DNA from: Candidatus Zambryskibacteria bacterium RIFCSPHIGHO2_12_FULL_43_12b
GTDB lineage: Bacteria; Patescibacteriota; Minisyncoccia; Phycocordibacterales; Zambryskibacteraceae
DNA length: 49,064 bases
Direction: 5' to 3'
Assembly: GCA_001823875.1 (NCBI GenBank)
Contig: MHVX01000029.1
Coordinates: forward strand, 17,102 to 66,165
In this document: in pieces, positions 766 to 28,525 of the stretch
Layout of the letters: every line of letters starts with the position of its first letter
How positions within the stretch are numbered: the first letter of the stretch is position 1
Notes under the pieces: model-generated
The model's database searches: none
Told to the model about the DNA's origin: nothing
Seen by the model: the letters and a program-made list of their open reading frames with translations, nothing else
Position numbers and translations under genes: made by a program

Positions 766-971
766 ATATTATTTAATTACTAAGATATCTTACTCCGCCT
801 GCTGTTATCTACCAAAACAGCTATGGGCGCATATTATTTTCCAATTACATTACCACATTGGTTTCTATATAACTTGCTGATATCTACCAAAACAGCTATG
901 GGCGCATATTTTTTTAATTACTAAGATATCTTACACTGCCTGCTGTTATCTACCAAAACAGCTATGGGCGC
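766..971 (-). repeat. Three tandem units, each with a degenerate tRNA-Lys 5' half
   Basis: Three head-to-tail units (766-830, 831-905, 906-971) lie immediately upstream of tRNA-Lys. Each ends in a copy of the tRNA 5' end: acceptor GCGCCCA, then TA, then a D-arm-like hairpin GCTG...CAGC whose loop keeps GGTAGA. Copies stop after the D-arm and have no anticodon arm. Units 1 and 3 are nearly identical, including a 12-bp palindrome TAAGATATCTTA; unit 2 differs in its spacer. No gene is seen between 766 and 1020. Confidence 0.8.
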
Positions 972-1261: not shown

Positions 1262-1330
1262 GAAGTAGCGGAGTGGAGCCTGTCCCGTGGATCGCCGATC
1301 CTGTGGGATTACCACTTCGCCACTACGCCT
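1262..1330. repeat. Truncated tRNA-Cys 5' copy inside a palindromic element
   Basis: On the minus strand, about 1309-1329 repeats the first 21 bases of tRNA-Cys (GGCGTAGTGGCGAAGTGGTAA) and then diverges in the D-loop. On the plus strand the same bases close a long imperfect hairpin: GTAGCGGAGTGG near 1266 pairs with CCACTTCGCCACTAC near 1311, around an inner GGATC-GCC-GATCC stem. No coding frame is supported between 1214 and 1354. Confidence 0.65.
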
Positions 1331-6171: not shown

Positions 6172-8868
6172 ATGCCTCCATTCGGCCAATTTACAACAAA
6201 AGCAAAGGAAGCCATACGAAAAGCCCATGAGCTCGCGATTGAGCGTGGTCAAAATCATGTCGGGCCAATGCACCTTTTGGCGGCTTTGATTCTGCAGGAG
6301 GAAAGCATGGTTACATCAATATTAGACAAACTTGAGGTGGATACCATATTGCTTACAGATTCTATCTTGGAATCTATAGAGTCTAGCGAAGCCGCACGGA
6401 CAATCACACCGTCATATCAAATATTTCTTACTCCAGAGCTTGCTCAGATTATTGAAGCAAGCACAAAAGTCGCCACAAATCTAAAAGATGAATTTGTGTC
6501 TACTGAGCATCTCTTTCTTTCAGCGATAGATGTGCAGGGGCCAGCCAAAGAGCTACTTGCGCGATTCAAGCTTGACCACAGCACTGTCGTACGCGTGATT
6601 GAAGAGCTTAGAAGCGCTAAGGTGCACAACGAGAAAGAACCCAAAAAATTAAAATCACTGCTTAAATATACTCGGAGCCTCACAAAGCTCGCTTCGCAAA
6701 ACAAGCTGGATCCTGTTATCGGACGAGACACAGAGATTTCAAGAATAATCCAAATACTTTCTCGTAGGACAAAAAATAATCCTATCCTTATCGGAGAGGC
6801 TGGGGTTGGTAAGACCGCGATTGTAGAGGGGCTCGCATTGAAGATGGCATCGGGAAATGTTCCAGAGTCACTCCGTGATAAAGAGCTAGTCTCACTTGAT
6901 CTAGGCTTACTCATTGCTGGTACAAAATATCGTGGAGAATTTGAAGAGAGGCTTAAAAATATTTTGAAAGAAATTGAGAGATCCGAAGGGAAAATCATTC
7001 TATTTATTGATGAGATTCACACGATTGTCGGAGCTGGGGCCGCGGAAGGCTCAATTGACGCTTCAAATATGCTTAAACCCCCTCTAGCAAGAGGAGAATT
7101 GCGCGCTATAGGGGCCACAACCCTCAAAGAGTATCAAAGGCATATTGAGAAGGACCCTGCTCTTACAAGGCGTTTTCAGCCCGTTTATGTAAATGAGCCT
7201 TCATTGGAGGATGCAGTCACAATCTTGCGAGGTTTGAAGGAAAAGTATGAGCTCTATCATGGTGTACGAATTACCGATGATGCTATTGTGGCAGCGGTAA
7301 ATCTTTCTGCCCGATATATTACAGATAGGTTTTTGCCTGATAAAGCGGTTGACCTTATTGATGAAGCGGCATCGCACCTCAAGATTTCCTTAGAGAATAT
7401 GCCCCCAGTACTTGAGGAAACTCACGCTAAAATAATGAAGCTTGAGATTGAGCGCGAAGCACTTAAGCAAGAAATCTCTGCTGATTCAAAAAATACAAAA
7501 GTGAAAAGCAGAATAAAAGAAATTGAAAAAGAAATCGCAGACTTTAAAGAGAAGACCTCTGAAGTGGAGCTTAAATGGAAAAACGAGAAAGAGACAGTAG
7601 GAGACATAAAGAGGATCAAAAAAGAATTGGAGACTATGCGTCTTGAAGCTGAAGCGGCAGAAGCAAAGTCTGATCTCTCCGTTGCCGCAGAAATCAGATA
7701 TGGCAAAATCCCGGCTCTTAACACTGAACTTGATCAGAAAGCTAAAAGACTGAAGAGACTACAGAGCTCTAGGAGAATCCTTAAAGAGGAAATTATGGAG
7801 GCGGATATCGCGGACGTGGTTTCACGTTGGACCGGAATACCGGTATCTCGAATGCTTGAAGAAGAAGCAGAGAAGCTTTCGCGCATGGAAGAATTTTTGA
7901 AACGCAGAATCATCGGACAAGACGAAGCGGTTGGAAAAATTTCCGATACTATCAAACGCTCTCGCGCCGGAATATCTGATCCAAACAGACCAATCGGATC
8001 ATTTATGTTTCTCGGTCCAACAGGTGTTGGAAAGACAGAGCTTACAAAAGCTTTGGCTGAATTTATATTTGATGATGAGAAAGCATTGATACGAGTGGAC
8101 ATGTCTGAGTTTATGGAGAGACACTCTGTCTCAAAACTCATTGGTTCACCTCCAGGGTACGTGGGACATGATGAAGGAGGTCAACTTACTGAAATGGTAA
8201 GACACAGGCCGTATGCGGTGATTCTCTTTGATGAAATAGAAAAGGCGCACCCGGAAGTCTTTAATATTCTCCTACAGGTGCTTGATAATGGAAGGCTCAC
8301 AGACGCGAAGGGCAGGACAGTTAACTTCAAAAATACCGTAATTATTCTGACCTCAAACATCGGGGCTCAATATATTGATAAAATGCAGAAGGTTGGTTTT
8401 GCTTATGAGAAAGGCACACGCTCGAACTATGAGGAAGCAAAAGATAAGGTGATGGAGTCTGTGAAGGAGCACTTCAGACCGGAATTTTTGAATCGCCTTG
8501 ACGACATTATTCTCTTTAACATTCTTTCTCCTGAAGCTATTAGGGAGATTGTAACGATTCAAGTCGGGCTTGCCAGGGAGAGACTTGCTCAAAAAGAGGT
8601 CGCTTTGGAACTTTCCAAGTCAGCAATAGATAAGCTCTCTAAAGAAGGGTATGACCCTCAGTACGGAGCAAGACCTCTAAAACGTCTTATTCAGAATAAA
8701 ATTCTTACACCTATCGCATCACTGATGATTTCAAAAGGAGTGCTCAAGGGCGGGACAATTACTGTAGATGTTGCGAAGGACGAATTTACTTTTGACGTGC
8801 GAAAAGGCAGAAAGGGAAGCATCTGGGCACAGAGCATTATTGAAGAGTCTTCGACCAAGAAGTCTTGA
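6172..8868 (+). CDS. clpC: ATP-dependent Clp protease ATPase subunit ClpC
   Basis: This is an AAA+ unfoldase that feeds substrates to ClpP. The 898 aa contain a double Clp N-domain (about 1-145), AAA module D1 with Walker A GEAGVGKT (near 209) and Walker B LFIDEIH, a long charged M/coiled-coil domain (about 420-540), D2 with GPTGVGKT (near 615) and [12 protein letters not shown], and a C-terminal D2-small domain. A VGF tripeptide (near 740) sits where ClpA/ClpC carry their ClpP-docking loop, supporting a protease partner rather than ClpB-type disaggregation. A TATAAT hexamer lies nine bases before ATG, so the leader is only a few bases. Confidence 0.95.
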
Positions 8869-25699: not shown

Positions 25700-25732
25700 T
25701 GGTAAATTTAGTCTTTGCTATATAATTCTCGC

Positions 25733-26776
25733 ATGCAAGGAATCGCTCTCTATCGTAAATATCGTCCCATGTCTTTCAAAGATGTGGTAGGGCAGGACCA
25801 AATTGTAAAAGTGCTCTCTGGAGCTATAGCGCAAGGTAATGTGTCTCATGCATACCTTTTTGCGGGTTCTCGCGGAACAGGAAAGACATCCATCGCCCGG
25901 ATTGTGGCCAAAGAGCTCGGCACTGCCGAAGACGATCTATTTGAACTTGACGCCGCCTCTAACCGAGGAATTGATGATGTGCGCAGTATTCGCGAGGCGG
26001 TTGCTACACTTCCATTTAAATCTAAATACAAGGTCTATATTATTGACGAAGCTCATATGCTTACAAAGGACGCATGGAATGCGTTTTTGAAAACCCTTGA
26101 AGAACCTCCAGCCCATGTCATCTTTATATTGGCGACCACAGAGCTAGACAAACTTCCGGAGACAATACTTTCCCGGTGCCAGATTTTTTCTTTCAAGAGA
26201 CCGACTCGCGCAGAGCTTAAAGACCTTGTGATGTCAGTCGCAAAAAAAGAAGGATTTATTATGGAAGCTTCAGCGGGAGAACTTATAGCGCTTCTTGGCG
26301 ATGGCTCTTTTCGTGACACTCTTGGCACACTGGAGAAAGTGCTTTCATTTACAAAAGATAAGAAAGTGTCTCTTGCCGAGGTAGAAACTGTGACAGGCGC
26401 GCCCAAGCATGTTTTGGTATCAGATTTTGTAAAAGCAATTGCAAATAACAATCTCGCTGATTCACTTTCTGTCCTCGGTAAAGTTGGGGATTCGGGAAGT
26501 GACATGAAAATGTTTTTGAAAATTGTTTTGGAGAAGCTTCGTCTGGCCCTGCTGATTAAGGTTGCGCCAGAGATGGAAAGTGATTTTAAAAATGAAATGT
26601 CGGATGAAGAATTAAAAGACACTAAAGCTTTAATAAAAAAGGGAAGCGGCATTACTTCTGCGACACTCTACGAGCTACTGCTTGCATATGATTCTGTAGG
26701 TCGCGCCTATGAACCATCTCTGCCTATTGAGCTGGCTTTAATCAAACTTTTTACACAAGATAGCAATTCAAGCTGA
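25733..26776 (+). CDS. dnaX: DNA polymerase III gamma/tau-like clamp-loader subunit, short form
   Basis: The AAA+ motor of the beta-clamp loader. The start is ATG 25733, exactly six bases after TATAAT (25721-25726). The 347 aa show IALYRKYRPMSFKDVVGQDQ, Walker A GSRGTGKTS (near 46), LDAASNRGIDDVR, YIIDEAHMLTKDAWNAFLKTLEEPP and the sensor ATTELDKLPETILSRCQIF. The four-cysteine zinc module normally between Walker A and DAASN is missing (KELGTAEDDLFELDAASN), and there is no long tau tail. Confidence 0.93.
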   Translation: MQGIALYRKYRPMSFKDVVGQDQIVKVLSGAIAQGNVSHAYLFAGSRGTGKTSIARIVAKELGTAEDDLFELDAASNRGIDDVRSIREAVATLPFKSKYKVYIIDEAHMLTKDAWNAFLKTLEEPPAHVIFILATTELDKLPETILSRCQIFSFKRPTRAELKDLVMSVAKKEGFIMEASAGELIALLGDGSFRDTLGTLEKVLSFTKDKKVSLAEVETVTGAPKHVLVSDFVKAIANNNLADSLSVLGKVGDSGSDMKMFLKIVLEKLRLALLIKVAPEMESDFKNEMSDEELKDTKALIKKGSGITSATLYELLLAYDSVGRAYEPSLPIELALIKLFTQDSNSS

Positions 26777-26877: not shown

Positions 26878-27075
26878 ATGACATCTACGACAGTGGCAGT
26901 CTTTCCAACTGAAACTGGATACGCTCCGCCAAGACTGATTCGCTTCGGCGATTTCAGAGAGTTGGTCAGGACAGCAGGGGGTGGTGATGATCAGGGCGAC
27001 CATACTGCCGACGATGAATTGTTCGGTGGGATGGACGGAATGGAGCAGTATGAGAGACCCTTCGAGCGTAGCTAG
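26878..27075 (+). CDS. Small acidic protein (65 aa)
   Basis: GAGAGGAG lies six bases before the ATG. The peptide MTSTTVAVFPTETGYAPPRL continues into a glycine- and aspartate-rich stretch (TAGGGDDQGDHTADDE) and is not membrane-bound. It is a complete unit with its own consensus promoter and terminator. No family recognised. Confidence 0.65.
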   Translation: MTSTTVAVFPTETGYAPPRLIRFGDFRELVRTAGGGDDQGDHTADDELFGGMDGMEQYERPFERS

Positions 27076-27995: not shown

Positions 27996-28093
27996 GAAGA
28001 AGTAGCACTTTTGAAGTATCGTATTTCAAGCTATAAGCTAAGACCCAACAGCTAAAAGCTAAACATTGGGGGCCTCGCCCGTAGGCTATGGCC

Positions 28094-28122
28094 GAGGGAT
28101 CGTTAAAGTTAACGGTAGGATC
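28094..28122 (+). repeat. Degenerate copy of the tRNA-Gln 5' half
   Basis: GGGATCG, a short insertion, then TAACGGTAGGA repeats bases 4-23 of tRNA-Gln (28364-28434): 7/7 plus 11/11 matches with extra bases in the D-loop. It lies just before the GIY-YIG gene, which is thus bracketed by this copy and the intact tRNA. Confidence 0.65.
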
Positions 28123-28123
28123 T

Positions 28124-28378
28124 ATGCACTTTGTTTATATTTTGAAAAGTGAGAAAGATAGGAATCTGTACATAGGCTGTACCGGTGATTTACATAATAG
28201 ACTTAGACTACACCAATCTGGTAAAGTTCTTTCCACAAAGTCTCGCTTACCGGTAAGATTGATATACAGCGAAGAATATATAGATAAATATAGTGCATAT
28301 AAAATGGAGGGGTTCTATAAAACAGCTGTAGGTAAGCGAGCTTTGAAAAAGAAAATAAAAAATTGGGGGATCGTCTAA
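28124..28378 (+). CDS. GIY-YIG domain nuclease (UPF0213/YhbQ-like), overlaps tRNA-Gln
   Basis: The start at ATG 28124 gives an 84-aa single GIY-YIG domain: HFVYILKS...NLYIGCTGDLHNRLRLHQ (motif with the two tyrosines and arginine) and SAYKMEGFYKTAVGKRALKK with the metal-binding glutamate. These small proteins are presumed DNA nucleases. A longer start at 28088 is possible. Its last five codons and stop lie inside tRNA-Gln (NWGIV-stop, with the stop TAA at tRNA bases 13-15). A degenerate tRNA 5' copy precedes it. The layout suggests a small mobile element that targets the tRNA gene (inference). Confidence 0.88.
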   Translation: MHFVYILKSEKDRNLYIGCTGDLHNRLRLHQSGKVLSTKSRLPVRLIYSEEYIDKYSAYKMEGFYKTAVGKRALKKKIKNWGIV

Positions 28379-28434
28379 CGGTAGGACAGTGGCCTTTGAA
28401 GCCATTAATTTTGGTTCGATTCCAAGTCCCCCAG
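28364..28434 (+). tRNA. tRNA-Gln(TTG)
   Basis: Acceptor TGGGGGA/TCCCCCA, anticodon stem GTGGC/GCCAT (one G-T pair) with loop CTTTGAA (anticodon TTG) and T-arm TTGGTTCGATTCCAA fold on the plus strand, with discriminator G. The 5' 15 bases are shared with the end of the GIY-YIG gene. Confidence 0.95.
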
Positions 28435-28525
28435 CAAACTCGTACGACGCTCGAGACGTGTCCAGATTATGGACTCAATAGTCTGTATAGAGTGAGAATT
28501 TTGGAACAGAGATATAATATAAAAT

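Follow-up and report, generated by a model that had tools for sequence, protein, structure and literature searches.

A GIY-YIG gene lies between a tRNA-Gln remnant and an intact tRNA-Gln

The window (the whole stretch of DNA that we analysed, 49,064 nucleotides from contig C29 of genome G000, which comprises 588 kb in 30 contigs) contains an 84-aa GIY-YIG ORF between a 5' remnant of tRNA-Gln and an intact tRNA-Gln, all on the plus strand. The intact tRNA-Gln(TTG), which we take to be the restored gene, occupies 28364-28435 as called by ARAGORN and Rfam, and dnaX, recognised by Pfam and by synteny as the ancestral neighbour of tRNA-Gln, lies at 25715-26776 (+). The remnant as a whole spans 28067-28120 and is split by a 25-nt hairpin. 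Its first six nucleotides (TGGGGG, 28067-28072, identified by their sequence), preceded by the leader "at" as at intact tRNA-Gln genes, are followed by the GC-rich hairpin (CCTCGCCCGTAGGCTATGGCCGAGG, 28073-28097, folding at -11.2 kcal/mol) and then by the remainder of the remnant, which aligns to about nucleotides 6-23 of the tRNA with a 6-nt insert, TAAAGT (28098-28120). After the hairpin the order is GATCGT, the insert, TAACGGTAGGA (to 28120), TCT and then the ATG of the ORF, with the remnant D-arm GGTAGGA 3 nt upstream of that ATG. When scored as a copy of the tRNA 5' end, GGGATCGT-TAAAGT-TAACGGTAGGA at 28096-28120 exceeded all 1208 other placements in the window. A sister element in genome G026 carries a hairpin related to that at 28073-28097, and most related elements have hairpins at comparable positions.

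The nuclease gene occupies 28124-28378, and its likely, canonical start is ATG 28124 (MHFVYILKS), directly after the 5' copy. A further in-frame ATG at 28088 lies upstream, within the hairpin. The stop codon TAA coincides with nucleotides 13-15 of tRNA-Gln, in the D-arm, such that the final codons are tRNA sequence. A sequence-only reading of the window had described a GIY-YIG gene bracketed by a tRNA-Gln 5' copy and the intact tRNA, and this held by tRNA call, Pfam match and placement score. Its gene start of 28088 is amended here to 28124, its 5' copy is extended to begin at 28067, since the hairpin and first six bases had been missed, and the termination of the ORF inside tRNA-Gln is an addition.

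The assignment of the protein rests on a match to PF01541 in Pfam (E=3.4e-13, 50.1 bits against a curated cut-off of 22.6), on residues Y5, Y16, G18, R26, H30, E62 and K66, which are invariant across 33 aligned relatives, and on a confident AlphaFold model (pLDDT 94.5) whose nearest solved folds in Foldseek are UPF0213 (E 7.6e-4), Slx1 and the catalytic domain of I-TevI. The GIY-YIG domain spans nearly all 84 aa and there is no DNA-binding region separate from the catalytic domain; we therefore describe the protein as homing-like and not as a proven homing endonuclease, and what is known of homing-endonuclease anatomy does not account for isotype-specific cutting. Searches of NCBIfam and PHROGs with the window protein returned no match, tblastn of the ORF against 50,697 phage records gave no hit at E<=1e-5 and showed no homology to phage SegB outside the domain, and a scan of named genomes found no close relative of the gene.

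GIY-YIG genes are enriched beside tRNA genes

We then searched 61 genomes of the window's order and assembled 135 GIY-YIG matches, taking the best-scoring part of each search's matches and not all matches; the genomes compared are MAG-type assemblies. Of these single-domain genes, 64 have a tRNA gene within 300 nt, compared to an expectation of about 7% (our own estimate, based on 40 tRNA genes in the 588 kb of G000), and 63 of the 64 are on the strand of the tRNA, 42 upstream of it and 21 downstream. A control family of unrelated proteins, GNAT, gave only 3 of 30 genes near a tRNA (Fisher p=1.4e-4). When the sample was widened to the phylum, a tRNA or tmRNA was present within 300 nt of 8 of the 30 top-scoring GIY-YIG genes, in every case on the same strand. 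Genomes carry between 1 and 13 GIY-YIG copies, and the upstream elements are found at tRNAs for Gln, Glu, Ser, Asn, Tyr, Ala, Leu, Trp, Cys, Thr, Lys, Met, Asp, Arg and His.

Separately, we observed a second GIY-YIG clade downstream of tRNA-Gln, on the same strand, with structured spacers and in several families (L067, L069, L074, L077, L090, L094, L108, L130). Of the 17 loci in the named-genome scan, several have a GIY-YIG gene near a tRNA or tmRNA, and these include MAGs of Ignavibacteriales and Bacteroidota. At L235, L242, L243, L246 and L306 the gene sits shortly 3' of tRNA-Lys or tmRNA in MAGs of Ignavibacteriales, Melioribacteraceae and Bacteroidetes, and of tmRNA in one Patescibacteria genome.

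Upstream elements carry remnants of the tRNA they adjoin

The 5' end of the neighbouring tRNA precedes the ORF in 20 of the 42 upstream elements by ungapped comparison and in 26 when the search was made split-aware, allowing one insert. The threshold was the 99th percentile of cross-locus controls, in which each tRNA was paired with the leaders of other loci, so that about 1% is expected by chance; the tRNA 3' end, used as a negative control, exceeded it at 1 of 42. The other 16 elements have no remnant over this threshold, which may be absent or decayed. Remnants mostly end 0-20 nt 5' of the ATG, usually with a GC-rich hairpin, and place their D-arm (GGTAGGA-like) in the position expected for a ribosome site. 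At the other end of the gene, the stop codon falls between -8 and +16 nt of the tRNA's first base in 32 of 42 elements and within the tRNA in 14, ten of which use T8-A9-G10. Maturation by RNase P would be inferred to strip the stop codon from such an mRNA, and translation and tRNA maturation would then compete for one transcript.

Some loci preserve both parts of the displaced tRNA. At L115, nucleotides 1-14 of an old tRNA-Ser precede the nuclease gene and nucleotides 15-86 (100% identical) follow the intact tRNA-Ser, and L178 shows the same partition for tRNA-Gln (1-15 and 18-72). Remnant and restored tRNA are near-identical in most pairs. An exception is the Met element of G017, where the remnant GCCGGTG agrees with the congeners G013 and G015 and the restored tRNA differs; only this case and the inner tRNA-Ser of L136 hint that the replacement may be foreign, and this remains no more than a possibility.

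Inverted repeats (for example GTTTTTGTCCAAA) were also seen directly flanking intact tRNAs at L178, L115, L113, L131, L079, L136 and L159. They would lengthen the acceptor stem and are nested in older cognate tRNA copies; such repeat-flanked, nested tRNAs could conceivably be tRNA-carrying cassettes. Short GC-rich palindromes (for example CCTGCCTGCCGGCAGGCAGG) occur in the D- and anticodon-loops of broken tRNA copies (L056, 1607-1705; L103, L126, L144, L189).

Nuclease phylogeny tracks tRNA isotype

When all 135 proteins were placed in one tree, members of the upstream class from different host families grouped together by isotype. Because the tree rests on few columns and has many weak forks, we relied on a nearest-neighbour statistic and not on deep branches. 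The nearest neighbour was of the same isotype for 27 of 42 proteins, compared to a mean of 2.8 and a maximum of 13 in 2000 shuffles, and 15 of these same-isotype neighbours come from different families. We considered whether the clustering could be an artefact of the tRNA-encoded C-terminus and rejected this, as the domain alone, without tRNA-encoded residues, gives 26 of 42 (shuffle maximum 11). Nearest neighbours carry no signal of host family (20 versus 16.2 expected, with 336 of 2000 shuffles as high). Nuclease phylogeny thus follows tRNA isotype and not host family. The window gene itself pairs with the tRNA-Gln element of G026 (support 100/90, 58% identity).

Related genomes hold empty and occupied versions of the same sites

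All comparisons of empty and occupied sites are between species and not within one population. Within genus g2, G013 carries an element at tRNA-Ser(tga) and G019 has the empty site, both flanks being homologous. At the tRNA-Thr(tgt) site of that genus, G015 has a nuclease gene and G001, G007, G011, G017 and G021 have none; here the left flank is homologous and the right flank of G015 is different. The Met-Asp cluster of g2 is empty in G019; in G017 it has a GIY-YIG gene at Met, and in G013 at Asp. The proteins of the G015 Thr element and the G017 Met element are 77% identical, and each element is missing from the other's site; similarity at the DNA level begins at the hairpin and extends to the start of the tRNA, and these two points delimit the mobile unit.

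The site occupied in the window shows the same alternation. In six related genomes dnaX and tRNA-Gln are separated by only 3-31 nt, and GIY-YIG genes lie between them in G024, G034 and G000 (the last with one more ORF). The nucleases at this site belong to different lineages.

A mobile-element model

Architecture, enrichment, isotype fidelity, gain or loss at orthologous sites and the presence of related elements at different tRNAs are shown by these comparisons. We interpret the window GIY-YIG gene as a likely member of a family of roughly 300-bp mobile elements that live in the tRNA genes of Patescibacteria, free-standing and homing-type, splitting the tRNA gene and supplying a replacement 5' half; cutting and the source of specificity are untested. 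The core of the element would be a single 80-aa GIY-YIG gene that stops where the intact tRNA begins or shortly inside its first nucleotides, with a short leader, often a hairpin, abutting the displaced 5' part of the old tRNA. The nuclease would break an unoccupied cognate tRNA gene of a recipient in the D-loop or anticodon loop, and repair from element-bearing DNA would insert the gene together with a replacement 5' half, or sometimes a whole tRNA. The tRNA would thus be restored, and the old 5' half would stay upstream and decay. In the absence of biochemical data, DNA cutting, repair-driven copying and the question of which flank supplies the replacement are matters of inference.

The sequence-only reading had raised a possible tRNA-targeting mobile element, to be judged by whether GIY-YIG genes are enriched beside tRNAs with 5' remnants and whether relatives hold empty and occupied versions of one site. 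Enrichment is strong and both versions exist, which favours that reading and supports it as a whole, whereas its nuclease cutting tRNA genes and driving movement remains an inference.

The rival that survives best is a passive passenger, in which transformed DNA recombines through the homology arms of the tRNA and the nuclease does not target tRNA genes. Homology arms alone would yield isotype fidelity, the 84-aa protein has no DNA-binding domain, and related proteins occur at tRNAs with similar 5' halves (Thr/Lys/Met). However, the active site is invariant in 33 divergent copies, implying that nuclease activity is selected, as passive passengers should decay, and independent nuclease lineages have entered one dnaX/tRNA-Gln site. 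We consider this rival improbable. The conserved active site argues that cutting matters, but cutting is still inferred, and isotype fidelity could be explained by the tRNA homology arms alone.

A domesticated function, in which the GIY-YIG protein helps the host to maintain, repair or express its tRNA genes and the 5' copies act as leader or regulatory sequence, would fit the tight fusion to the tRNA, the common hairpin leaders and the conserved active site. This is considerably harder to sustain, as the genes are sporadic within one genus where the tRNAs of empty relatives are intact, the isotype varies freely, and copies range from 1 to 13 per genome. Chance, meaning that tRNA 5' ends were duplicated in tandem or by slippage and that small ORFs happened to land next to tRNAs, is supported by the existence of nuclease-less tandem copies (three at Lys, two at Phe), but the enrichment, the strand bias, the remnant 0-20 nt before the ATG and the isotype clustering far exceed controls and leave it virtually no room. 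An integrase-type island or group I/II intron remnant in a tRNA gene can be set aside almost entirely: integrative elements usually leave a partial and a complete tRNA copy as their scar (PMC9897764) and GIY-YIG domains are known in introns, but the element measures about 300 bp, has one ORF and duplicates the 5' half, the roughly 240 nt between the tRNA-Gln copies hold only the GIY-YIG ORF and no integrase, no intron core was found by Rfam at gathering score (tRNAs only, at 12 such loci and the window), and no splicing is needed because the tRNA after the ORF is intact.

A bolder form of the mobile-element reading holds that an Slx1-like single-domain nuclease finds its target by structure (a hairpin, a cruciform or the cloverleaf of the tRNA gene, for example in single-stranded DNA from competence) and that its expression is coupled to tRNA maturation, since with the stop codon in the tRNA, RNase P processing of the transcript would destroy the message. 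We regard this form as unlikely; if true, it would describe a new kind of self-limiting, tRNA-parasitic mobile gene.

Relation to known elements

One of the closest known parallels is SegB of phages T4 and T6, a free-standing GIY-YIG homing endonuclease of the tRNA region that cuts within tRNA genes (PMC2988022, PMC13096335); hairpins upstream of the gene start have also been described for T4 endonuclease genes (PMC2988022, PMC13096335). Like SegB, the Patescibacteria elements carry a small free-standing GIY-YIG gene beside tRNA genes. Unlike SegB, they are chromosomal, single-domain (about 80 aa) and fused to the tRNA 5' end, and they leave a split remnant; their clades follow isotype, whereas the association of SegB is without isotype preference. 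In layout they resemble the mitochondrial mobile ORFs of atp6, atp9, cox2 and nad3 in Allomyces and Glomus (PMC3630166), where an endonuclease ORF and a replacement gene part are inserted and the native part, pushed aside, persists as a partial copy. This arrangement of endonuclease gene, replacement gene part and displaced native part nearby is found here too. However, the mitochondrial elements occupy protein genes and replace the 3' part, whereas those of Patescibacteria occupy tRNA genes and replace mostly the 5' part, and the Glomus atp6 example is a LAGLIDADG enzyme, unlike the GIY-YIG nucleases here.

In the rRNA genes of CPR bacteria, insertions other than introns carry GIY-YIG ORFs, which the authors of that study describe as sparse and outside homing (PMC11270868). 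These share with our elements the same bacteria and the placing of GIY-YIG in non-intron insertions of RNA genes, but those at tRNAs occur often and keep to their isotype. Islands that integrate at tRNA genes, which measure about 9-23 kb in the cited examples (PMC9897764), likewise flank their insert with one complete and one partial tRNA copy, whereas the elements described here are about 300 bp, lack an integrase and duplicate the 5' half. We found no prior description of GIY-YIG/tRNA-gene elements in Patescibacteria in the literature searched, and the GIY-YIG group, interpreted here as selfish genes that invade tRNA genes, is widespread and, as far as we searched, previously undescribed.

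Patescibacteria genomes hold many small GIY-YIG ORFs that lack an explanation, and nearly half of those examined in the order would gain a role under the mobile-element model, as roughly 300-bp elements that parasitise almost every tRNA in the repertoire without loss of its function. The model predicts one cutting site per isotype, would explain many of the tRNA fragments and disrupted tRNA copies in the genomes of these bacteria, and would provide a chromosomal counterpart to phage SegB and the mitochondrial mobile ORFs.

Nuclease-less copies and other tRNA fragments

Copies of tRNA 5' ends without a nuclease had been claimed at tRNA-Lys and tRNA-Cys in the window, and this held. Three copies (801-971, minus strand, starting from 971, 905 and 830) precede the intact tRNA-Lys at 692-765, and one copy of nucleotides 1-21 (1309-1329, minus strand) precedes the intact tRNA-Cys at 1141-1213. 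Elsewhere in G000, upstream nuclease-less 5' copies occur at Phe (two) and Val (one), and several tRNAs have 3' copies downstream. The accompanying claim that all copies break off in the D-arm held only in part: it is true of Gln, Lys, Cys, Phe and Val but not of Ile. The Lys and Cys copies are compatible with being nuclease-less relatives of the element, although where they came from has not been established.

The Lys, Phe and Val copies have in common an altered D-arm, TAGCTGTYTTGGTAGWTAA, each with the acceptor strand of its own tRNA. This motif occurs six times in G000 and once more in 60 relatives, again before tRNA-Val(gac). The copies lie at 801-971 (minus strand) in the window, at 26994-27074 and 15697-15715 of contig C11 of G000, and at L307 in G036, a genome of another family, at tRNA-Val.

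On contig C24 of G000 (7492-7564, L005), an intact tRNA-Ile(gat) lies within another tRNA-Ile split exactly at 35/36, with no nuclease gene. Its flanks are inverted repeats, and the whole folds as the outer tRNA, its anticodon stem extended and closed off by the inner tRNA. A single insertion at 35/36 fitted better than a simple three-copy tandem origin, which was rejected. Copies of tRNA 3' ends (T-arm and acceptor) were observed 89-162 nt downstream of the Arg, Asp, Met and His tRNAs of G000 (L004, L013, L014 and L026), in several cases with an antisense T-arm between the tRNA and its 3' copy.
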